Below are positions 31,754-46,818 of a stretch of 64,000 nt of DNA, in pieces (within the stretch, counting starts at the first letter, position 1; each line of letters begins with the position of its first letter). The stretch spans positions 992,001 through 1,056,000 of the forward strand of contig NC_011891.1 in the NCBI RefSeq assembly GCF_000022145.1, in the 5' to 3' direction. Source of the stretch: Anaeromyxobacter dehalogenans 2CP-1 (GTDB taxonomy: Bacteria > Myxococcota > Myxococcia > Myxococcales > Anaeromyxobacteraceae). The translations under genes and the position numbers were made by a program. Under the pieces are notes generated by a model. It did no database searches. It worked only from the letters and a program-made list of their open reading frames with translations, and had not been told where the DNA came from.

Positions 31754-32659
31754 TCAGGCCGCGGCGGCGCGCGGCGGGTCGGGCCGGATGGCGAGCCGGA
31801 GCGGGCGGCCGGCGCGCAGGACCGCCAGGTCGATCTCGCCCGCCCGGGCCAGCACCAGCACGCGCTGCAGGTCGTCCAGCGTCTGCACCGGGCTGCCGCT
31901 CGCCGCGACGAGCAGGTCGCCCGGCCGGAGGGCGGCGCGGCCGGCCGGCGATCCCTCGACCACCTCGAGCACCCGCACGCCGCGCCCGTGGCCGGCGAGC
32001 GCCGCGTCGCGCGCGTCGAGGTCCTCGCCGCGCGCCGCGATCCCGAGGAACGGGCGGCGCACCTCGCCCTCGCGCATCAGCACCGAGGCCACCCACGCCG
32101 CCGTGTGCGCCGGCACCGCGAAGCCGATCCCGTGCGCCCAGGGGAGCATGGCGGTGCTGAGCCCGACCACCGCGCCGCCGGCGTCGAGCAGCGGTCCGCC
32201 CGAGTTGCCCGGGTTGATCGAGGCGTCGGTCTGGACCAGCCCCTCCAGCACCGCCCCGCGCGGCGCCGCCAGGTTGCGGTGCAGCGCCGAGACCACGCCC
32301 AGGGTGACCGAGCGCTCGAAGCCGAGCGGGTTGCCGATGGCCACCACCAGCTCTCCGACCGAGAGTCGCCGCTCGGAGAGCGCCAGGGAGGGGAGGTCGC
32401 GCGCGTCCACCCGCAGCACCGCCACGTCGGTGCGGTCGTCGCCGCCGGCGCGCTCCGCCGCCACCACCCGCGCGCCGGAGAGCCGGACGCGGACCGGGCC
32501 GCGTCCGCGCGCGACGTGCGCGTTGGTGAGCACCCAGCCGTCCGGCGCGATCACGACGCCGGAGCCCTGGCCGCCGCCCTGCTCCACGCCCACCACCGCC
32601 GGGGCGGCGCGGGCCACGAGGTCGGCGACGTCGCGCGAGAGCGCCTGCAGCCCGGTCAC
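31754..32659 (-). CDS. trypsin-like serine protease with PDZ domain (HtrA-like)
   Basis: A 301-residue protein with an intact catalytic triad: His48 (LTNAHVA), Asp78 (DDRTDVAVLR) and Ser153 (NPGNSGGPLL). A PDZ domain follows at about 205-295 (VVEGSPAGRAALRPGDLLVAA). It lacks a signal peptide or membrane anchor, unlike the periplasmic DegP/DegS proteases, so it may be cytoplasmic. The GTG start overlaps the stop codon of the second protease gene upstream (4 bp), so the two are translationally coupled and may form a heteromer. Confidence 0.9.
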   Translation of the reverse strand: MTGLQALSRDVADLVARAAPAVVGVEQGGGQGSGVVIAPDGWVLTNAHVARGRGPVRVRLSGARVVAAERAGGDDRTDVAVLRVDARDLPSLALSERRLSVGELVVAIGNPLGFERSVTLGVVSALHRNLAAPRGAVLEGLVQTDASINPGNSGGPLLDAGGAVVGLSTAMLPWAHGIGFAVPAHTAAWVASVLMREGEVRRPFLGIAARGEDLDARDAALAGHGRGVRVLEVVEGSPAGRAALRPGDLLVAASGSPVQTLDDLQRVLVLARAGEIDLAVLRAGRPLRLAIRPDPPRAAAA

Positions 32660-33594
32660 GCCCGCCTCCCGCGCGCGCCCACGGTGACCGCGACGTCGCG
32701 CACCTCGCCCGCGCGCAGCACGCGCAGCGTCACCGCCTGGCCGATCCGGTCCTCCGAGAGCAGGGCCAGCAGCTCCCCCGGATCCTGCAGCGCCTCGCCG
32801 CCCACCGAGAGGATGGCGTCGCCGAGCAGCACGCCCGCGCGGTCCGCCGGGCTGCCCGGCTCGACGCGCGCGACGAGCAGCGCCAGCTCCTCGCCGGTGC
32901 GCGCGCGCAGCGCCGGCGGGAGCGGGACCGGCTGCGTGGCGAGGCCGAGGTAGCCGCGGCGCACCTCGCCGTGCGAGAGGAGCGAGGTCACCACCCGCGC
33001 GAGCGTGGCGGCGGGCACCGCCAGCGCCGCGCCCCGCACCAGCCCCGCCGCCGCGAGGCCGAGCGCGAGGCCATCCGCGCCGAGCACCAGGCCGCCGGAG
33101 AGCCCCGGGTGCCGGGGGATCCCCAGCTCCAGGTAGCGGTCGACGCGCCCACCCATGGGCGCGCGGAACGCGTCGCCGGCGCGCGCCAGCAGGCCCAGCT
33201 CCGCGCGCGGCCCTCGCCCCGGCCGCGTGACGACCAGCGTGAGCTGCCCCCCGGCGGCGCCGGCCGCGTCCGCCCAGTCCGGCGGCGCGAGCCCCGGCGC
33301 GCGCACCCGCAGCGCGGCGAGGTCGGTGCTGGGGTCGCGGCCGATCACCTCCGCCGCGACCTCGTCGCCCGAGGGCAGGCCGACCGTCACGCCCTCGTCG
33401 CGCTCGAGCGCGTGGTGCGCGGTCACGATCACGCCGTCGGCCGACCACACCACGCCCGACGCGGGCGCGTGGCGCCGTCCCTCGACCCGCACGACGTGCG
33501 CGGCGGCGGACGCGGTGAGGGCGGCGAGGCGCGCGGAGAGCTGGGCGAGCAGGTCGGACGGCAGGGCAGGGCTGACGGGAGGCGCGGAGGTCAT
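32656..33594 (-). CDS. second trypsin-like protease with PDZ domain
   Basis: A 312-residue paralogue of the downstream protease, with His61 (VTAHHAL), Asp91 (DPSTDLAAL) and Ser166 in HPGLSGGLVL. The usual GNSGGP is replaced by GLSGGL, so the oxyanion region differs and activity may be reduced. A PDZ domain follows (VEPGSPADRAGVLLGDAILSV). Again there is no signal peptide. It is first in an operon with the other protease and perhaps the MacB-like permease. A TAGCTT hexamer 6 nt before the ATG suggests a leaderless start. Confidence 0.85.
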   Translation of the reverse strand: MTSAPPVSPALPSDLLAQLSARLAALTASAAAHVVRVEGRRHAPASGVVWSADGVIVTAHHALERDEGVTVGLPSGDEVAAEVIGRDPSTDLAALRVRAPGLAPPDWADAAGAAGGQLTLVVTRPGRGPRAELGLLARAGDAFRAPMGGRVDRYLELGIPRHPGLSGGLVLGADGLALGLAAAGLVRGAALAVPAATLARVVTSLLSHGEVRRGYLGLATQPVPLPPALRARTGEELALLVARVEPGSPADRAGVLLGDAILSVGGEALQDPGELLALLSEDRIGQAVTLRVLRAGEVRDVAVTVGARGRRA

Positions 33595-33600
33595 GGCGGG

Positions 33601-33606
33601 AAGCTA
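33601..33606 (-). promoter_or_regulatory. -10-like hexamer of the protease operon
   Basis: TAGCTT on the minus strand, 6 nt before the ATG at 33594. Confidence 0.4.
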
Positions 33607-33748
33607 GGCGGTCCGCTCGCCGCGCACATCGGCGGGAGGGCCAGGGCGCGGCCTGGTCGGATGGGCAGGTCGCGCCCGGCGCGCGGGGAGGTGCGCGCGC
33701 CGCAGGGGGCGCCGGTTGCGGGACCGGGCCGGTCCGGTCGAGGGCGGT

Positions 33749-33754
33749 TAGATC
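33749..33754 (+). promoter_or_regulatory. -10-like hexamer of the LuxR-type regulator
   Basis: TAGATC, 6 nt before the ATG at 33761 with no ribosome-binding site between. Confidence 0.4.
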
Positions 33755-33760
33755 CGCGGG

Positions 33761-34387
33761 ATGGAGCCGCTCCGGGTGCTGGTGGTCTCGGCCGATCCGC
33801 TGGCGCGGGCCGGCCTCGCCGCGCTGCTCGGCCTGAGCCCGGAGCTCCGGCTCGCGGGCGAGGCGGAGCCGGCGCGCGCGCCGGCCGCGGCGCGCGAGGT
33901 GGACGCGGCGCTCTGGGACCTGGGCGCGCCCGCCGCCGCCCGCGGCGCGGCGGACGCGGGCGGGGCCGAGGCGCTCGCGGCGCTCGCGGCGGGGCTGCCC
34001 GCGGTCGCGCTGGTGGCCGGGGAGGCGCAGGCGGGCGAGGCGCTCCGGGCCGGCGCGCGGGGCGTGCTCCAGCGCGGCGCCGGGGCGGAGGCGATCGCCG
34101 CGGCGCTGCGCGCGGCGGTCAGCGGGCTGACCGCGCTCGATCCCGAGCTCGCGGCGACGCTGCTCCGGGCGCCCGCCGCCGAGGCGGGCGGCCCGCTCAC
34201 GCCGCGCGAGCGCGAGGTGCTGGCGCTCGTGGCGGAGGGGCTCGGCAACAAGGCCATCGCCGGGCGACTCGGCATCTCCGAGCACACCGCCAAGTTCCAC
34301 GTGAACGCGATCCTCGGGAAGCTCGGCGCCGGCTCGCGCGCCGAGGCCATCGTGCGCGCGGCGCGGCTCGGGCTGGTGGTGCTGTGA
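33761..34387 (+). CDS. NarL/LuxR-type response regulator with atypical receiver
   Basis: A 208-residue protein with an N-terminal receiver-like domain and a C-terminal LuxR helix-turn-helix (LTPREREVLALVAEGLGNKA, GISEHTAKFHVNAILGKLG). The receiver keeps Asp12 and the presumed phospho-acceptor Asp53 (ALWDLGAP). The usual second acidic residue is Ala11, and I see neither the conserved Thr/Ser nor the Lys, so phosphorylation may not be the signal. It is divergent from the protease operon, which it could control. No kinase gene is adjacent. Confidence 0.85.
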   Translation: MEPLRVLVVSADPLARAGLAALLGLSPELRLAGEAEPARAPAAAREVDAALWDLGAPAAARGAADAGGAEALAALAAGLPAVALVAGEAQAGEALRAGARGVLQRGAGAEAIAAALRAAVSGLTALDPELAATLLRAPAAEAGGPLTPREREVLALVAEGLGNKAIAGRLGISEHTAKFHVNAILGKLGAGSRAEAIVRAARLGLVVL

Positions 34388-34521
34388 CGTCGCCTGGGCG
34401 CGGTGGCGTCGGGGCGGCGCGGCAGGGCGCCGCTGCCCCGCGCGGGCGTGGCGCGCGTCCGGGCGGCGGGCGATCGGCAGGTGCGGGCGCGACGGCGTCG
34501 CGGCGCCCGGGGAGGACGGAG

Positions 34522-35031
34522 ATGGCGGGGCACGAGGCGGAGGAGCGGGCGCAGGCGGGCGCGGAGCCCGCCGGCGGCATCGAGGCGGTCCGGACGCTGC
34601 TGGAGCGGGAGCGGGCCGGGGTCCTGTCCACGATCTCGTTGCGGCACGCGGGGTGGCCGTACGGGACGCTGGTGCCGTTCGCGGTGGCCGCGAACGGGGA
34701 GCCGCTGCTGCTGCTGTCGGCGCTGGCGCAGCACACGCAGAACCTGGCGGCCGATCCGCGCTGCACGCTGCTGGTGTTCGACGGCGAGGCGGCGCGAGGG
34801 GATCCGCGGACGGCGGCGCGCGCCACGCTGGTCGGCCGGGCCGTGCGGGTGGGCGCGGCGGAGGAGGAGGACGCGCGCGAGCGGTACGCCGCGCGCGTGC
34901 CGGGCGCGAAGGGGCTGCTCGCGCTCGACTTCTCGCTGTGGCGGCTCGAGGTGGAGGAGGTGCAGCTGGTGGGCGGGTTCGCGGCGGCGGGGTTCTTCTC
35001 GGGGGAGGCGCTGCGCAGCGGGGGCGCGTGA
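34522..35031 (+). CDS. pyridoxamine-5'-phosphate oxidase-like FMN-binding split-barrel protein
   Basis: A 169-residue protein with a split-barrel pattern: GVLSTISLRHAGWPYGTLVPFAV, LLLSALAQHTQNLAADPRCTLLVFD, ATLVGRAVRV, and a C-terminal FSLWRLEVEEVQLVGGFAAAG. The VGGFA ending and overall design resemble the HugZ/haem-utilisation group rather than PdxH. It likely binds FMN or haem in the cytoplasm; the substrate is unknown. The ATG at 34522 follows GGAGGACGG. The stop codon is immediately followed by the G-rich tandem array. Confidence 0.85.
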   Translation: MAGHEAEERAQAGAEPAGGIEAVRTLLERERAGVLSTISLRHAGWPYGTLVPFAVAANGEPLLLLSALAQHTQNLAADPRCTLLVFDGEAARGDPRTAARATLVGRAVRVGAAEEEDARERYAARVPGAKGLLALDFSLWRLEVEEVQLVGGFAAAGFFSGEALRSGGA

Positions 35032-35032
35032 A

Positions 35033-35300
35033 GGGGGGGCTTTTGAACGGGGGCGGGGGTTTTGACGGGGGTGGCGGCTTTTGAACGGGGCGGCGGCTTT
35101 TGACGGGGGCGGGGGTTTTTGACGGGGATGAGGCTCTTGAAGGGGGCGAGGCTTTTTGACGGGGCGGGCGGCTTTTGACGGGGGCGGGGCTTTTGACGGG
35201 GATGAGGCTGTTGAAGGGGGCGAGGCTTTTTGACGGGGCGGGCGGCTTTTGACGGGGGCGGGGCTTTTGACGGGAACGGAGGCTTTTGACGAGGGCAGCG
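35033..35300. repeat. 14-unit G-rich tandem array with a TTTTGACGGGGG core
   Basis: About 14 degenerate units of 17-20 bp, each built as T-tract, GA(A)C or GAAG, then a run of four to seven G. A higher-order 74-bp block (35128-35201) is repeated nearly perfectly at 35202-35275, showing recent expansion. The array starts one base after the stop codon at 35031. The plus strand has many runs of G4 or more and could form G-quadruplexes. Frames through it are open on the minus strand (PVKS, PPRQK repeats) but look non-coding. Confidence 0.9.
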
Positions 35301-35410
35301 GGCGGCCGAGGGCGGGTGCGCGTGGTCCGGAACCGGGGCGGCGCGGATCGGCTCGCGAGAGGCCCGAGGGCGGGGCGCGGGACGCGGGGCGCGTGCGGTC
35401 GAGCGTTCGC

Positions 35411-35466
35411 GGCGAAGCGGCGAAGCGGCGGGGCGGCGGGGCGGCGGGGCGGCGGGGCGGCGGGGC
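35411..35466. repeat. octamer tandem repeat, seven units of GGCGRRGC
   Basis: Two units of GGCGAAGC followed by five perfect units of GGCGGGGC, then a decayed unit. A simple repeat prone to slippage, 250 bp before the HNH gene. Confidence 0.9.
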
Positions 35467-35720
35467 GGCGGAGGATGATGGTCACCGTGAGTGGATGTTT
35501 GCGGCCCAACGGGAACGCCCTGCGGGCTTGACGGGGGTCGCGCGGGGAGCGGCTTGCGCGGGCGGAACCGCAGGGGCGCAGCGTTCTGAGGCGTCGGCGG
35601 GGCTCGGCTGAGACGCTGGACGATGAGGCGAGGGGTCGCGGGGCCCTGGGTGCGTTCGCGCGTCTGCGGCGATCCTCGTGCGTTTCACGGAGGGCGAAGA
35701 TCGCGTGCGATGCTTCGTGC

Positions 35721-36833
35721 ATGGACGACGCAAACGAGTTCACGAAGCGTCTGGTCGCGCTGCTCCGGTCCGAGCGGCATGCCATGGCGGAGTTCCTGGT
35801 CGCGCTGGCGGAGTTCGACCGGCGAGGGCTATGGCGGGAGCGGGGGCACACCTCGCTCTTTTCGTTCCTGCGGCGTGAGCTGGGGCTGTCCGCCGGCGCG
35901 GCGCAGTACCGCAAGACGGCGGCGGAGCTCGTCCAGCGGTTCCCGGCGGTCGAGGGCGCGCTGCGGGACGGGAAGCTATGCCTGTCGTCCGTCTGCGAGC
36001 TCGCGAAGGTGGTGACCACCGGGAACTGCGCGGAGATCCTGCCGCGGTTCTACGGGCTCTCGAGCCGGGACGCGGCGGAGGTGGCTGCTTCCATCCGGCC
36101 GGTGGCGAATCCGCCCCGGCGCGAGGTGGTCGTGCCGGTGCGGGCGACCTCCGCGCCGGCGTCGGTGACGGCGCCTGTCGCGGAGCCGATTCTATTTCGG
36201 GCGCCCGAACTGATTGCACCCAGTCGGGCCGAGCCCACGGGTCAATCAGGGTCCGCTCACAGTGCAGAGTCCGCTCGCAGTGAGCCCGTCGAACTGCGAG
36301 TGGCGAGCCCCGTCGCCAAGCCCAGCTCCGTCGACTGGCTCGAGGGCGACCAGGCTCGCATGCATCTCACCGTCTCCAAGGCCTTCCTGAAGAAGCTCGA
36401 GGCGGCTCGGGACGCGCTGTCGCATTCGATGCCGTGTGCGTCTCGCGAGAACGTTCTCGAGGCGGCGCTCGACCTGCTCATCGCAGAGCGGGGCCGCCGC
36501 AAGGGGCTCACGGCTCGGCCGCAGAAGGAGCCTCGCCCCTCCACGCGGCCGGACCACGTCCCCGCCCACGTCCGCCGGGAGGTCTGGGAGCGCGATGGCG
36601 GGCGGTGCACCTTCGTCCTCGCGTCGGGGGAGCGCTGCGGGTCCACGCATCGGCTCGAGCTCGACCACGTCGTCCCGCGAGCGCGCGGCGGGGGCTCGAC
36701 GGCGGGCAACCTTCGGATCCGCTGCCGCGGGCACAACCTCGCGGAGGCGCGGCGGGTCTTCGGGGACGCGGTGATGGACGGGTACGCGGCGAGACGGCGG
36801 GGCGGGGCGCGCGATCCGGCGGGCTCACCCTGA
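35721..36833 (+). CDS. HNH endonuclease with DUF222-like N-terminal region
   Basis: A 370-residue protein. The helical N-terminus (ALAEFDRRGLWRERGHTSLF, FLRRELGLSAGAAQYRKTAAEL) resembles the region before HNH domains in DUF222/13E12-type proteins. The middle (about 130-215) is a low-complexity linker with visibly lower GC. The C-terminal HNH domain has VRREVWERDGGRCTF, LELDHVVPRARGGGST and NLRIRCRGHN, with the three catalytic positions and Cys residues for metal. Such genes are often mobile or multicopy and their biological role is unclear. Codon use is less GC-biased than the neighbours, consistent with transfer. Confidence 0.88.
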   Translation: MDDANEFTKRLVALLRSERHAMAEFLVALAEFDRRGLWRERGHTSLFSFLRRELGLSAGAAQYRKTAAELVQRFPAVEGALRDGKLCLSSVCELAKVVTTGNCAEILPRFYGLSSRDAAEVAASIRPVANPPRREVVVPVRATSAPASVTAPVAEPILFRAPELIAPSRAEPTGQSGSAHSAESARSEPVELRVASPVAKPSSVDWLEGDQARMHLTVSKAFLKKLEAARDALSHSMPCASRENVLEAALDLLIAERGRRKGLTARPQKEPRPSTRPDHVPAHVRREVWERDGGRCTFVLASGERCGSTHRLELDHVVPRARGGGSTAGNLRIRCRGHNLAEARRVFGDAVMDGYAARRRGGARDPAGSP

Positions 36834-36845
36834 GTAAACATTCCC

Positions 36846-37232
36846 TCAACCGCGGATCACCTTCCGGACTCCGCGGCGCTCCAGCCATGCGACGGCGCGG
36901 TCGCGCTGGTCGCCCTGCAGCACGATGGCGTCGCCCTCCACGCCGCCGCCGCAGCCGAGGGCGCGCTTCAGCGAGTCGGCCCACTCGGCGAGCGGCCGGG
37001 GCGCGAGGGCGAGCTTCTCCACCACGGTGGCTTCCTTGCCGCCGCGGCCCTTGCGCTCCAGGCGCACCACGGCGCGCGCGGGAGCGGACGCGGGGGTGGG
37101 GGCGGCCGCAGGCGGCGGCGCGGGTTCGGGTGCGGGGACGTGGTCCGGGGGGAGCTGCGCACGCAGCTTCTCGAACGCGGCGTTGAACGGGCCGGCGGGC
37201 GCGTCCACGGGCGGCGCCTTCTTCTTGCTCAC
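36846..37232 (-). CDS. SUI1/YciH-family translation initiation factor-like protein
   Basis: A 128-residue protein. About 50 residues of Pro/Ala-rich leader ([20 protein letters not shown]) precede the SUI1 domain: VVRLERKGRGGKEATVVEKL, LKRALGCGGGVEGDAIVLQGD and AVAWLERRGV, matching eIF1/YciH proteins. In bacteria, YciH-type proteins are thought to affect start-codon fidelity. The GTG start follows GGAGGAGGT and overlaps the tfuA stop by 4 bp. Coupling to tfuA and ycaO genes suggests a link between that modification system and translation. Confidence 0.9.
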   Translation of the reverse strand: MSKKKAPPVDAPAGPFNAAFEKLRAQLPPDHVPAPEPAPPPAAAPTPASAPARAVVRLERKGRGGKEATVVEKLALAPRPLAEWADSLKRALGCGGGVEGDAIVLQGDQRDRAVAWLERRGVRKVIRG

Positions 37233-38440
37233 GGGGACCTCCTCCTCGTCCTCGCGCGGCGGCGCGGGCGCTCGTGCGGCGTGGCGAGCCGCTGCGCCTC
37301 CTCCAGCCACGCTCCACCGAGCCGCGCGGCGAGCGCCAGGCCCTCCTCCCAGGACGGTCCGTCGGGCACGGCGCGCTCGGCCATCCCGAGGAGCCGCGCC
37401 TCCAGCGCGAGGTCCTCGCAGAGCCGGCGCGCGGCGCCGTCGTCGAGGCCGCAGGCGGCGAGGAACGCGGCGCGCCCGGACGGCCGCACGCCGGCGCGGC
37501 GCAGCCAGGTGCGCTCGGCCTCCGCGGTCTCGGCCTCGCCGGCGGCGAGCCCCATCGACCGGGCCAGCGCGGCGAGCGCGGCGCGGCGCAGCCCGTCGGC
37601 GGCGAGCCGGCGGGCGTCGGGCCGGCGCGCGAGCGCGGCCAGCACCTCGCCGGAGGGGACCTCGGCGCCGCCAGGCAGCAGCGTCGCGGCGCGCGCGAGG
37701 CGCGCCCGGCGCAGGTGCGCGGGCGGCGAACCGGCGGCGGGACGGGGCGGGGGCGGCGCCCCCTGGCGGCGCGCGCGGGCGAAGTCCGCGGCTGCAACGA
37801 GGCACGCCTGGGCGTCGGCGCGCTTCACGTCGGGCGCGCGGGGAAGGCGCTCCCCGAGCCGCGCCCGCTCGGCGGGCGCGAGCCGGGTCCGCGTCAGCAC
37901 GGCGGGCCAGGTGCGCGCGGTGTAGGGGATGCCGGCCGCGGCGGCGAGCACGGCCCGCGCGGCGGCCGGGCCGACCTCTCCCGAGGCGCGCGCGTCCTCG
38001 AGCGCGGCGCGCACCTGCACGAGGGGGAGCGTGAACGGGCGGAACCCGTCCTCGGCGCGCCCGTGCAGCAGCGCCACCTCGCCGTCGTCGTCGATGACGC
38101 CGTCGCGGTACCAGCCGAAGACGCGGCCCACGCCGACCACCCCGTGCGCGGCCAGCTCCGCGGCCCGGAGCGCGCCCATGCTCCCGCCGCCGAACACCGC
38201 CACGCCGGCGTCGAGCGCGGCGAGCACCTCGCGCGGCCACACCGACGGGACCGTGTCGAACAGCCCGTCCACGAGCGCGATCGCGAGCGGGCGCGCCGGC
38301 AGCACGGCCAGCAGGTCGCCGGCGCGGGCGGGCGGGAGCACGCGGCAGGGCGCGAGCCGGCGCGCCTCGTCGGCGCCGAGCGAGGGGCCGAGGAAGGCGA
38401 CGACGTCGCCGGGGCGGAGGCGGCCGGAGGCGGGCTTCAC
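37229..38440 (-). CDS. TfuA-like protein
   Basis: A 403-residue protein. The N-terminal 200 residues show the TfuA pattern: VVAFLGPSLGADEARRL, VDGLFDTVPSVWPREVLAAL, VFGGGSMGALRAAELA, GVGRVFGWYRDGVIDDDGEV. TfuA proteins work with YcaO cyclodehydratases to install thioamides in peptides or proteins. The C-terminal half is Ala/Arg-rich, helical and of unknown role; it ends in a basic tail. It is coupled to the ycaO gene upstream (4-bp overlap) and to the SUI1 gene downstream. Confidence 0.92.
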   Translation of the reverse strand: MKPASGRLRPGDVVAFLGPSLGADEARRLAPCRVLPPARAGDLLAVLPARPLAIALVDGLFDTVPSVWPREVLAALDAGVAVFGGGSMGALRAAELAAHGVVGVGRVFGWYRDGVIDDDGEVALLHGRAEDGFRPFTLPLVQVRAALEDARASGEVGPAAARAVLAAAAGIPYTARTWPAVLTRTRLAPAERARLGERLPRAPDVKRADAQACLVAAADFARARRQGAPPPPRPAAGSPPAHLRRARLARAATLLPGGAEVPSGEVLAALARRPDARRLAADGLRRAALAALARSMGLAAGEAETAEAERTWLRRAGVRPSGRAAFLAACGLDDGAARRLCEDLALEARLLGMAERAVPDGPSWEEGLALAARLGGAWLEEAQRLATPHERPRRRARTRRRSP

Positions 38441-39576
38441 AGGAGCTCCGAGCGCAGGAGGCCGGGGGCGACGATCTTCACCACGTGCAGGCCGGGCGGG
38501 CCCTCGAGCGCGACGCGCACCGCGGGCCCCAGGCCGGCCGCGCGCAGCCGGCCGGCGATCCGCCGGAGCGCGGCCGAGGGCGACGGCGCGGCGAGCGAGG
38601 GCAGCGCGGCGGCCCTGCGCGACGGCCGCAGCGCGGCGCAGCGCGCGGCGAGCGGCGCGGCGGACGCGCGGTCGCCGTGCAGCACGTCCTCGCGCGCGCC
38701 GTGGATCTCCGTGGCGCGCGACTGGGCGGCCTCGAGGAGCGCGGCGAGGAGCGCCTCGTCGCGGCCGGGCCGGCAGGCGTAGCCGGCGGCGAGCGGCACC
38801 GGCCCTCCCGGATCCCCGAGGAGCGCGCCGGCCACGGGCAGCCCGAGGCCACCGGCGCGGCGCCCGGCGGGCACGAGATCGAGCAGGTGCACGCGCAGCC
38901 CGCGCGCCTCCAGCGACGCCGCCAGGGCGGCGGTGCGCGGCGCGGCCGCCGCCAGCCCGCCGGGATCGAGCAGGCGCCGGGCCAGCTCACGCTCGGTGAA
39001 GCCGTCCGGGAGCGCCCGCGCGAGCTGGTCGCGCTCCACCGCCTCGAGCAACGCGTGCAGGGCGGCGCGGTCGGGGTCCGGGTGCGCGCCCATGCCGTTC
39101 GAGGTCCAGGTCAGCACCGCGGGGCCGAGGAGCGGGCCGCCGGGCGGCGGGCAGAACACGGCCTGCGCCGGCACGGCGATCGGCGCGCCGCCCTCGAGCG
39201 GCACGCCCTGGCACCAGGCGACGCGCAGCGCCTCCCAGGCCGGATCCGCGCCGCCGCCGGCCAGGGCGCCGGGCCCGATGACCGCGCCCTCGCCCAGGCG
39301 GGCGCGGAGCTCCGCCGCAGAGGCCAGGGGCATCGGGCCGGGGCGCTCCGCCGCCCACAGCTCGGCCGCCTCGGCCAGCGCCCCCAGCGCGGCGTCCTCG
39401 AACCGCGCACCCTTGCCGTTCGTGACCTGGAGCACGTGGCCGTCCGGGCGCACCGCGCTCGCCACCTCCACGCCGGTCCGGTCGAGGCCGGTCAGGCGGG
39501 CGACGCGCGTCACTCCGAGTGCATGCGTCAGCGTGCCGCGCCGTCCGTCCCGAAGGGGTCGAGGGATCCCGGCCAT
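38437..39576 (-). CDS. YcaO-domain ATP-dependent cyclodehydratase/thioamidation protein
   Basis: A 379-residue protein with the YcaO ATP-binding signature [26 protein letters not shown]; further motifs are [23 protein letters not shown] and [13 protein letters not shown]. YcaO enzymes activate backbone amides with ATP to form azolines or, with TfuA, thioamides, on ribosomal peptides or on proteins such as methyl-coenzyme M reductase. It is first in a three-gene coupled operon (ycaO-tfuA-SUI1). No precursor peptide, McrA or leader-peptide gene is recognisable nearby, so the substrate is probably encoded elsewhere. An AT-rich TATAAG lies 5 nt before the ATG. Confidence 0.92.
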
Positions 39577-39646: not shown

Positions 39647-41044
39647 ATGCCCGAGACGCCGGTCGACCTGGCCCTGGCCCACTACGAGAAGAACGCCGCG
39701 AACTACCTGGACGAGCTGAAGCGGCTGGTCCGCATCCCCAGCGTCTCGTTCCCGGGCTTCCCGGAGAACGAGGTGCGGCGCAGCGCCGAGGCGACCGCCG
39801 AGCTCCTGCGGCGGCGCGGCTTCGAGAAGGTCGAGGTCCTCGAGGTCGAGGGCGCGCACCCGTACGTCTTCGGGGAGCGCGTCGAGGATCCCGCCGCGCC
39901 CACCCTGCTGCTGTACGCGCACCACGACGTGCAGCCCGCCGGCGAGGCGGAGGCCTGGAAGACCCCGCCGTTCGAGCCCACCGAGCGCGACGGCCGCCTG
40001 TGGGGCCGCGGCGCCGCCGACGACAAGGCCGGCATCATCGTGCACGCGGCGGCGGTGGACTCCTGGGTGCGCGGCGCCCGGCGCATGCCGCTCAACGTGA
40101 AGATCGTGGTCGAGGGCGAGGAGGAGATCGGCTCCGATCACCTGACGGCGTTCCTCACCCGCTACCGCTCGCGCCTCGACGCCGACGCGATGGTGCTCAC
40201 CGACACCGGCAACGTGGATTCGGGCGTGCCGTCGATCACGGTGGCGCTCCGCGGCCTGGTGGTCCTCGAGGTGGAGGTGCGCGCGCTCGAGCAGAGCGTC
40301 CACTCCGGCATGTGGGGCGGCCCGGTGCCGGATCCCACCATGGCGCTCGCCAAGATGCTCGCCGCGCTGGTGGACGACGACGGGGCCATCGCCATCCCCG
40401 GGATCCACGACCGCGTCCGCCCGCTCACCCGCGAGCAGCGCGAGGCCATCGCCGCGCTGCCGGTCACCGAGGAGGACATCCGGCGGCAGGCCCGGCTGCG
40501 GCCCGGCGTGCGGCTGCTGGGCGGGCGCCATCCGCTGGAGACGAACTGGTGGCAGCCGTCGCTCGCGGTGAACGCCATCCAGGCGTCCTCGCGCAAGGAC
40601 GCGCGCAACATCATCAACGACGTGGCCTGGGCGCGCCTCGGCGTGCGGCTGGTCCCGGACATGGACCCGGTGGACGTGCGCGAGAAGCTCGTCGCGGCGC
40701 TGCACGCCGCAGCGCCCTGGGGCGTGGAGGTGACCGTGAAGCCGGACACCGCCGGCGCGCCCTGGATCACCGACCTCGGGCACCCGGCGTTCGACGCCGC
40801 GTTCCGGGCCCTGGAGAAGGGGTTCGGGCGCCCCGCCCTCGCGATCGGGTGCGGCGGGTCGATCGGGTTCGTGGAGCCGTTCGCCAAGGCGCTCGGCGGC
40901 GTCCCGGCCCTGCTCATCGGCGTCGAGGATCCGTCGTCGAACGCGCACTCGGAGAACGAGAGCCTGCTGCTCTCCGACTTCCAGAAGGCCATCCGGAGCG
41001 CGATCCACCTCTACGAGGAGCTGGCCGGCGCGCTGCGCCGGTAG
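39647..41044 (+). CDS. M20-family metallopeptidase (dipeptidase-like)
   Basis: A 465-residue protein with the M20 zinc-binding motifs: first His/Asp region [14 protein letters not shown], bridging Asp in [11 protein letters not shown], catalytic Glu pair in [11 protein letters not shown], third-ligand region [11 protein letters not shown], and C-terminal His in [15 protein letters not shown]. An insertion carrying the dimerisation domain ([20 protein letters not shown]) is as in peptidases of the CNDP/ArgE-like group. It probably cleaves dipeptides or N-acyl amino acids in the cytoplasm. The ATG at 39647 has a weak Shine-Dalgarno (CCGAGGTG). It is divergent from ycaO. Confidence 0.9.
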
Positions 41045-44793: not shown

Positions 44794-45375
44794 ATGACTC
44801 ACGCGCGATCCGTCCTCGTCGCCGCCGCCGCGCTGCTGCTCGCCGGCTGCGGCTTCCAGTCCATCCCCCAGGCGGAGAACGCCGTCTCCGGCGCCTGGGC
44901 AGAGGTGGAGAACCAGTACCAGCGCCGCGCCGACCTCGTGCCCAACCTGGTCGAGACGGTGAAGGGCTACGCCTCGCACGAGCGCCAGACGCTCGAGGCG
45001 GTGATGGCGGCCCGGGCCCAGGCCACCCAGGTGCGCATCCCGGTGGACCAGCTCACGCCGGAGAACATGAAGAAGTTCGAGGGCGCGCAGGGCGCGCTGT
45101 CCTCGGCGCTGGGGCGGCTGCTGGCGGTCTCGGAGAACTACCCGCAGCTGAAGGCGAACGAGAACTTCCGCGACCTGCAGGCGCAGCTCGAGGGCACCGA
45201 GAACCGCATCGCCATCGCGCGCCGCCGCTACATCCAGGAGGTGCAGCGGTTCAACGACCTCGTGACCGTGCCGCCGACCAGCTGGACGAACTCGATGATG
45301 TACCACAAGCAGCCGAAGGCGCAGTTCACCGCCACCACGCAGGGGGCGGAGAAGGCGCCCGCGGTGAAGTTCTGA
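44794..45375 (+). CDS. lemA: LemA family lipoprotein
   Basis: A 193-residue protein with a lipobox (LLLAGCGF) and the LemA helices: AWAEVENQYQRRADLVPNLV, TVKGYASHERQTLEAVMAAR, FRDLQAQLEGTENRIAIARR and VQRFNDLVTVPPTSW. LemA proteins are membrane-linked helical bundles of uncertain role, commonly encoded beside TPM-domain proteins, as here. It overlaps the next gene by one base (TGATG), so the two are coupled. The anchor is lipid-type rather than a transmembrane helix. Confidence 0.93.
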   Translation: MTHARSVLVAAAALLLAGCGFQSIPQAENAVSGAWAEVENQYQRRADLVPNLVETVKGYASHERQTLEAVMAARAQATQVRIPVDQLTPENMKKFEGAQGALSSALGRLLAVSENYPQLKANENFRDLQAQLEGTENRIAIARRRYIQEVQRFNDLVTVPPTSWTNSMMYHKQPKAQFTATTQGAEKAPAVKF

Positions 45376-46166
45376 TGGCGGTCGCCGCCCCGGCCGCCGG
45401 CCCGCGCGCGCTCGCGGTCGCCGCCCTCCTGCTCGCCGCGGCGCTCGGCGCCGCGCCGTCCCGTTCCGCGGCCCAGGCGGCCATCCCGCCGCTCACCGGC
45501 CCGGTGGTGGACGCGGCCGGCGTGCTCTCGCGCGGCGACGAGGAGCGGCTGGCCGCGCTCGCGCGGGCGGCCCGCGGCGGCGAGGGCGGGCAGGGCGTGC
45601 AGCTCCAGTACCTGCTGGTGCGCACGCTGGAGGGCGAGCCGATCGAGGACTACTCGATCCGGGTCGCCGAGGCCTGGAAGATCGGCACGCGCGGCAAGGA
45701 CAACGGCGTGCTGGTGACGGTCGCGGTCGACGACCGCCAGGTGCGCATCGAGGTGGGCGGCGGGCTGGAGGGCGGCCTCACCGACGTGCAGTCCTCGCGC
45801 ATCATCCGCGGCGCGATCGCGCCCGCCTTCCGGCAGCAGCGCTACGCCGACGGGCTCTACGACGCGGGCGTGCAGATCCTGGGCGCGCTCGGCGCCCTCC
45901 CGCAGGGCGTGGACGCGCGCCGGGCGGTCCGGCCGCAGGTGCGCGTGCCCTCGCTGTTCGTGCTGCTCCTGTTCGTGGTCGCGTTCGTGATCCGCGTCCT
46001 GACCGGCTTCGGCCCGCGGCGGCGCCGCTCGCTCTGGTGGGGCGGCGGCGGGCCCTGGGGCGGCGGCGGCCCGTGGGGCGGGGGCGGGTTCGGCGGAGGC
46101 GGCGGCGGCGGCTGGTCCGGCGGCGGGGGCGGGTTCTCGGGCGGCGGCGCCTCGGGGCGCTGGTGA
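45375..46166 (+). CDS. TPM-domain membrane protein (YgcG-like)
   Basis: A 263-residue protein: signal peptide, TPM domain at about 35-180 (GPVVDAAGVLSRGDEERLAA, YLLVRTLEGEPIEDYSIRVA, KDNGVLVTVAVDDRQVRIEV), one transmembrane helix (LFVLLLFVVAFVIRVLTGF), and a Gly/Trp-rich C-terminal tail ending GGGASGRW. TPM domains are periplasmic and in some homologues have phosphatase activity or act in photosystem repair; LemA-TPM gene pairs are widespread. It is coupled to lemA. Confidence 0.92.
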   Translation: MAVAAPAAGPRALAVAALLLAAALGAAPSRSAAQAAIPPLTGPVVDAAGVLSRGDEERLAALARAARGGEGGQGVQLQYLLVRTLEGEPIEDYSIRVAEAWKIGTRGKDNGVLVTVAVDDRQVRIEVGGGLEGGLTDVQSSRIIRGAIAPAFRQQRYADGLYDAGVQILGALGALPQGVDARRAVRPQVRVPSLFVLLLFVVAFVIRVLTGFGPRRRRSLWWGGGGPWGGGGPWGGGGFGGGGGGGWSGGGGGFSGGGASGRW

Positions 46167-46176
46167 GGAGGCGCGC

Positions 46177-46818
46177 GTGAAGTTCGAGGCGCAGTTCGAC
46201 GAGGCGGCCCGCCGCCGCATCGCGGAGGCGGTCGGGCGCGCCGAGGCGCTCTCGCGCGGGCAGATCGTTCCCGTGGTGGTGGAGAAGAGCGATCCGTACC
46301 CGGAGGTCCGCTACCGCGGCGCGCTCCTCGCCGCCGCGATCGCCACCGCGGCGGTCCTGGCGCTGCACCTGCCGGTCACGCTCGCGGAGCTGCCGCTCGT
46401 CCAGCTCGCGGCCGGCCTGCTCGGCGCGTGGCTCTCGATGTGGAACCCGGTGGAGCGCCGGCTCGCCGGCGCGCGCGCGCTCGACCAGGCGGTGCGCGCG
46501 CGGGCGGTCCGCGCCTTCCACGAGAACGGGCTGCACCGGACCACCGAGGGCACCGGCGTCCTGGTGTTCGCGTCGCTGTTCGAGCACGAGGCGGTGATCC
46601 TGGGCGACCGCGGCATCCACGAGAAGATGGGCGACGCGGGCTGGGACCGCGCGGTCGCGGCGCTGGTGGCCGGGATGCGCGACGACGACCCGGGGCGCGG
46701 CTTCGTCGAGGCCATCGCCCAGTGCGGCGCCCGGCTCGCCGAGCACTTCCCGCGCGACCCCTCCGCCCGCCCGCCGCCGAACGAGCTCGAGGACGCCATC
46801 CGGGCCTCGCGGACCTGA
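46177..46818 (+). CDS. second TPM-domain membrane protein
   Basis: A 213-residue protein with a GTG start 11 bp after the preceding gene. The N-terminal 50 residues (EAVGRAEALSRGQIVPVVVE) precede two hydrophobic segments (ALLAAAIATAAVLALHLPV and LVQLAAGLLGAWLSMW). The C-terminal part (TEGTGVLVFASLFEHEAVIL, GDRGIHEKMGDAGWDRAVAA) matches the short TPM variant that follows LemA/TPM in many genomes. It probably forms a complex with the preceding two products in the inner membrane. The function of the set is unknown. Confidence 0.88.
   Translation: MKFEAQFDEAARRRIAEAVGRAEALSRGQIVPVVVEKSDPYPEVRYRGALLAAAIATAAVLALHLPVTLAELPLVQLAAGLLGAWLSMWNPVERRLAGARALDQAVRARAVRAFHENGLHRTTEGTGVLVFASLFEHEAVILGDRGIHEKMGDAGWDRAVAALVAGMRDDDPGRGFVEAIAQCGARLAEHFPRDPSARPPPNELEDAIRASRT

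Follow-up and report, generated by a model that had tools for sequence, protein, structure and literature searches.

An orphan YcaO–TfuA pair of the Myxococcia as a putative protein-thioamidation system

What does a YcaO–TfuA pair modify when neither a precursor peptide gene nor McrA is at hand, and does the SUI1-domain gene joined to it take any part? Enzyme pairs of this kind exchange the oxygen of peptide backbones for sulfur. So far, McrA and uL16 are the only two proteins known to carry backbone thioamides, and more are expected (PMC13063428). We addressed both questions for a gene trio in a window of 64,000 nucleotides from Anaeromyxobacter dehalogenans 2CP-1.

The gene trio and its protein families

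A first-pass annotation had described three coupled minus-strand genes. Its coordinates proved exact, with 4-bp GTGA overlaps at both the ycaO–tfuA and the tfuA–SUI1 junction. The features of the locus are as follows.

38437–39576, minus strand: ycaO; 379 aa, ATG start; PF02624 at 180.5 bits, above the Pfam cut-off
37229–38440, minus strand: tfuA; 403 aa, GTG start; TfuA core plus helical C-terminal extension; PF07812 at 133.9 bits, above the Pfam cut-off
37799–38404, minus strand: TfuA core domain; residues ~13–214, from the alignment with 6xp8
37283–37729, minus strand: TfuA C-terminal helical domain; residues ~238–386, possibly SurA-N-like, from a structure model with fold and profile matches
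36846–37232, minus strand: SUI1-domain gene; 128 aa, GTG start; PF01253 at 47.1 bits (cut-off 25.5)
39647–41044, plus strand: M20 family peptidase; PF01546 at 106 bits; divergent neighbour of ycaO, context only

The ycaO–tfuA overlap is not due to chance, because it is found again in most relatives; the tfuA–SUI1 overlap is identical in genomes G002, G006 and G011. The host genome, a single contig of 5,029,329 bases, encodes one YcaO only, with no second copy found, and contains ThiS-like carriers; searching it with the MCR_alpha_N profile revealed no McrA. The SUI1 protein has a SUI1 domain and scores 58.7 bits against the YciH equivalog TIGR01158, below the cut-off of 111.65.

Both members of the pair carry the hallmarks of their families, PF02624 with the conserved ATP/Mg residues in YcaO and a PF07812 core, encoded beside a YcaO, in TfuA. 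Conserved YcaO residues comprise E69/E72, E178/E181/R182 and E282/Q285/R287, and the Glu, Arg and Gln columns that align with the E. coli and MJ1094 YcaO proteins are invariant. Profile scores were 102 bits for MJ1094 of a methanogen, 34 for E. coli YcaO and 31–34 for RiPP heterocyclases, and sequence similarity to E. coli YcaO amounted to 22.7 bits. Among solved relatives, the methanogen enzymes that install the McrA thioamide are thus the nearest; fold comparison agrees, the AF2 model (pLDDT 91) matching MJ1094 (6peu) with a TM of 0.73. By analogy with these relatives, the YcaO studied here is probably a YcaO-fold, ATP-dependent, backbone-activating enzyme that forms thioamides. The McrA thioamidation pair (YcaO TIGR03266 and TfuA NF033432; MJ1094 and 6xp8 are the nearest solved structures) likewise combines a YcaO with a TfuA and acts on a whole protein, but the host genome here has no McrA, no MCR_alpha_N domain was found in it, and both proteins fall below the equivalog cut-offs (TIGR03266, 94 against 365 bits; NF033432, 153 against 235 bits), placing the pair outside that class.

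The TfuA core closely resembles M. acetivorans TfuA (6xp8) by profile (E 7e-54) and by fold (Z 30.1, rmsd 1.4 over 212 residues); its matches to periplasmic binding proteins and receiver domains (Z <9) were judged to reflect common Rossmann-like arrangements. Residues ~238–386 form a well-predicted helical domain in the model, an extra domain that is absent from the 217-residue archaeal TfuA of the McrA pair. Four SurA-family chains recurred among the fold matches confined to this C-terminal part (Z 5.4–6.1, rmsd 4.2–5.0, weak alone), and hhalign of the C terminus against SurA_N, likewise weak alone, gave a probability of 53% and a score of 32.5, whereas none of 30 shuffles exceeded 13.1. No Pfam SurA match was found in 29 TfuA members, and SurA was the only fold family to recur on the C terminus among the matches listed, a list that barely tests the point. 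The domain may bear a faint likeness to SurA-N, above that seen in shuffled controls. Because a Paracoccus plasmid TfuA has a faintly similar C-terminal extension, the extension is not unique. The long Ala/Arg tail, to which the first-pass annotation had assigned a possible role, is replaced by an acidic tail or by none in orthologues, and this lack of conservation speaks against a function for the basic tail.

Inheritance of the pair and its linkage to SUI1

Scanning one genome per species across 84,980 species with two short peptide patterns yielded 65 loci, all named as myxobacterial or delta-proteobacterial bar one. That record, ‘Comamonas sp. KCTC 72670’ (L128), holds a Myxococcus-like ycaO–tfuA locus nested among Myxococcus in the YcaO tree, and is probably mislabelled or contaminated. 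The YcaO tree follows genera. TfuA was present in 67 of 116 Myxococcota genomes of a phylum-wide sample, with two of the 67 outside the order, and nearly all sampled Myxococcaceae carry it, the exceptions being small genomes; among 60 relatives, 34 had TfuA and 43 had SUI1. The unit that is conserved is the ycaO–tfuA pair alone, single-copy in the host genome and, as far as sequence comparison indicates, vertically inherited in the class Myxococcia.

Several Anaeromyxobacter draft contigs (L102, L103, L104, L132 and L185) stop inside ycaO or tfuA, so that absence in drafts is not to be read as loss; an apparent loss of TfuA in G001 was rejected because the contig ends there. In Anaeromyxobacter sp. 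RBG_16_69_14 (L067 and L137), the pair is relocated with a 242-bp gap, and the PGxxxSELL that conserved YcaO C termini end in is missing; this copy may be decaying, or the arrangement may be an assembly error. In several large Myxococcaceae (G118, G124, G126, G116, G110, G058 and L075), the number of TfuA matches ranges from two to five; the additional ones score higher against PF07812 and may belong to RiPP clusters. Sequence divergence of YcaO and TfuA outpaces that of the housekeeping genes nearby, with YcaO at 63–65% in the genus versus 92–94% for uL16 and 83–85% for M20.

The proposal that the SUI1 protein is a partner or substrate of the pair was weighed by the linkage of its gene in other genomes. 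In an independent genome scan, SUI1 lay within 3 kb downstream in 3 of the 45 ycaO–tfuA loci with enough readable downstream DNA, all three in Anaeromyxobacteraceae. Within the 60 relatives, adjacency of SUI1 to the pair is limited to g1 (the genus of the window), g3 and a single one of the two g4 genomes; SUI1 lies elsewhere in g2, in g5, in the Myxococcus family and in the remaining families. A tree of M20 and GlgP places g5 beside g1 and g2 beside g3; the SUI1-less junctions of g2 and g5 thus fall on separate branches, and the SUI1 junction is most simply ancestral to Anaeromyxobacteraceae, with at least two losses. Gene order therefore suggests that the junction is probably ancestral in this family and was broken more than once, both genes being retained in the genome. 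SUI1 also persists independently of the pair: in G016, where the pair is on another contig, SUI1 still adjoins M20, and three good g6 genomes have no pair, yet retain the M20 block as well as SUI1. Of the genomes with a completeness of 90% or more, SUI1 was present in 28 of the 29 that have the pair and in 8 of the 14 that lack it (Fisher p 0.003, kinship uncorrected), and the genomes without SUI1 were mostly small ones.

This survey of related loci had been suggested by the first-pass annotation, which would have given up SUI1 if the adjacency belonged to this genome only. Adjacency is not confined to the host genome; however, because it is limited to one family and SUI1 is kept without the pair, the outcome largely went against the proposal, and SUI1 was rejected as a conserved partner of the pair. 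Judged by linkage, the SUI1 protein is an operon neighbour specific to Anaeromyxobacteraceae and not needed by the pair. Co-expression with SUI1 may still bring some benefit within this family, since the tight junctions are kept across three genera. The survey corrects a tempting but poorly supported lead.

Gene neighbourhood and the search for a precursor

The pair's neighbours differ by family: M20 with SUI1 in one, a peroxiredoxin-like gene with a kinase-like gene in another, and elsewhere a sensor–regulator-like pair or an endonuclease-like gene (M20 alone was named by profile match, the others by reading their sequences). No short open reading frame (ORF) within 4 kb of the pair was conserved across families in 41 loci, although a fast-evolving or genus-specific precursor could escape such a comparison. 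Within Anaeromyxobacteraceae, no conserved short ORF was found beside the pair in a screen with a low-complexity filter, which was needed because the unfiltered screen was uninformative at 75% GC. The precursor gene close to the pair that would mark a thioamidated RiPP cluster was thus not found, and the earlier observation that neither a precursor peptide nor McrA is nearby held up.

A 44–74 aa ORF downstream of tfuA in Myxococcaceae was not taken as a precursor because it sits in a conserved element ahead of the kinase-like gene and is not beside tfuA in Archangium and Hyalangium. The element itself, GTGACA...TAGGGTCA then ACCCTGGAGGTT...CCCTGGGTGGT, is strongly conserved in many Myxococcaceae, lying downstream of tfuA from ~12312 in L112 and at the same place in L106, L110, L113–L115, L118, L120–L124, L126–L128, L130, L131 and L140. 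By its sequence, it looks like a promoter followed by a structured leader, and two loci scanned against Rfam gave no match to it.

On the other side of the pair, M20–glgP–MGMT–lemA–TPM forms a conserved block that is kept with or without the pair, and the M20 peptidase was rejected as a partner because it belongs to this block. Apparent M20 matches near the Myxococcaceae pair were due to an ORF overlapping ycaO and were gone when the trimmed protein was used. In the window, lemA and then two TPM-domain genes occupy 44794–46818, conserved with the M20–glgP block across the family. Separately, 32656–33594 and the overlapping long ORF 31754–36019 contain two trypsin/PDZ (DegP-like) stretches, seemingly in tandem on the minus strand, the first of which was profile-scanned.

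Candidate targets of the pair

We favour, with a probability of roughly 55%, the explanation that ycaO and tfuA encode a stand-alone backbone-thioamidation pair, vertically inherited in Myxococcia, that modifies an unlinked cellular protein. This explanation draws on gene identity, intact motifs, pairing, coupling geometry, single copy number, a genus-following tree and the absence of a linked substrate, all of which are observed, and on thioamide formation, which the pair would carry out by analogy with its relatives. An unlinked protein target, as the first-pass annotation had supposed, is reasonable because there is no precursor peptide beside the pair and no McrA in the genome; its suggestion of SUI1 as a partner or substrate found no support. 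Judging from its family, YcaO would bind ATP and activate a backbone amide of the target, and the literature suggests that TfuA would supply a sulfide equivalent, whose source may be a thiocarboxylated carrier of the ThiS type; more speculatively, the helical C-terminal domain of TfuA might help to hold or present a protein segment. The faster divergence of YcaO and TfuA, in contrast to the slow change reported for uL16-modifying YcaOs (PMC13063428), counts against this explanation, and so do the extra TfuAs of large Myxococcaceae, some of them perhaps RiPP-type. In a narrower and more tentative version, the whole class would devote the pair to a single conserved myxobacterial protein, with a SurA-like TfuA domain capturing the target segment.

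Precedent points elsewhere: most bacterial YcaO–TfuA pairs described so far have been filed as RiPP clusters (PMC8120280), and the pair could make a thioamidated RiPP from a precursor encoded elsewhere in the genome, a possibility consistent with its moderate sequence divergence and with the weakly similar extension of the Paracoccus plasmid TfuA. Thioviridamide-type clusters and other TfuA–YcaO gene clusters share the gene pair (PMC8120280), but the myxobacterial pair has no conserved precursor or tailoring genes beside it in the families examined. In RiPP clusters, the precursor gene usually stays close to the genes for export and tailoring, whereas this pair is inherited vertically as a near-core gene among neighbours that change from family to family, with no short ORF shared across families, and we consider a RiPP product doubtful.

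A target in the translation apparatus had also been proposed; the candidates are uL16 and the SUI1 protein itself. E. coli YcaO thioamidates uL16, the thioamide lying at Met82 (PMC13063428); it has the YcaO fold in common with the enzyme here and modifies a complete cellular protein, likewise lacking a linked precursor. Arg-Met-Gly is retained in the uL16 loop here, and the probably ancestral operon with SUI1 in Anaeromyxobacteraceae, together with the uneven occurrence of SUI1 in genomes with and without the pair, lends this idea some weight. However, the SUI1 link is absent outside Anaeromyxobacteraceae, and 8 good pairless genomes keep SUI1. Published marks of uL16-type YcaOs are membership of the E. 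coli YcaO group, an acidic pI, a TPR domain and no TfuA nearby, with no TfuA near any suspected member (PMC13063428). The enzyme studied here lacks every one of them: E. coli YcaO has 586 aa, a TPR domain, a pI of 4.4 and no TfuA, whereas this YcaO has 379 aa, no TPR domain, a pI of 9.84 (5.3–11.1 across the clade) and an adjacent TfuA. Moreover, the uL16 loop reads RMGTGKG within Anaeromyxobacteraceae both with the pair and in genomes that lost it, which removes it as a co-varying target. uL16 may be a target, SUI1 is unsupported, and a translation target as a whole is improbable. YcaO enzymes vary in nucleophile and product (PMC13063428), so an active pair might instead leave a different backbone modification, for instance an azoline or an amidine, whether its substrate is a protein or a peptide; we regard this as very unlikely, given that all TfuA-associated YcaOs with known products in the literature covered make thioamides and that the nearest structures are McrA-type thioamidases.

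If modification of an unlinked protein is borne out, the target of the pair would join McrA and uL16 as a third protein substrate. The class can be cultured and counts Myxococcus xanthus among its members, and its near-core orphan YcaO–TfuA pair offers a clear place to seek that third thioamidated protein.
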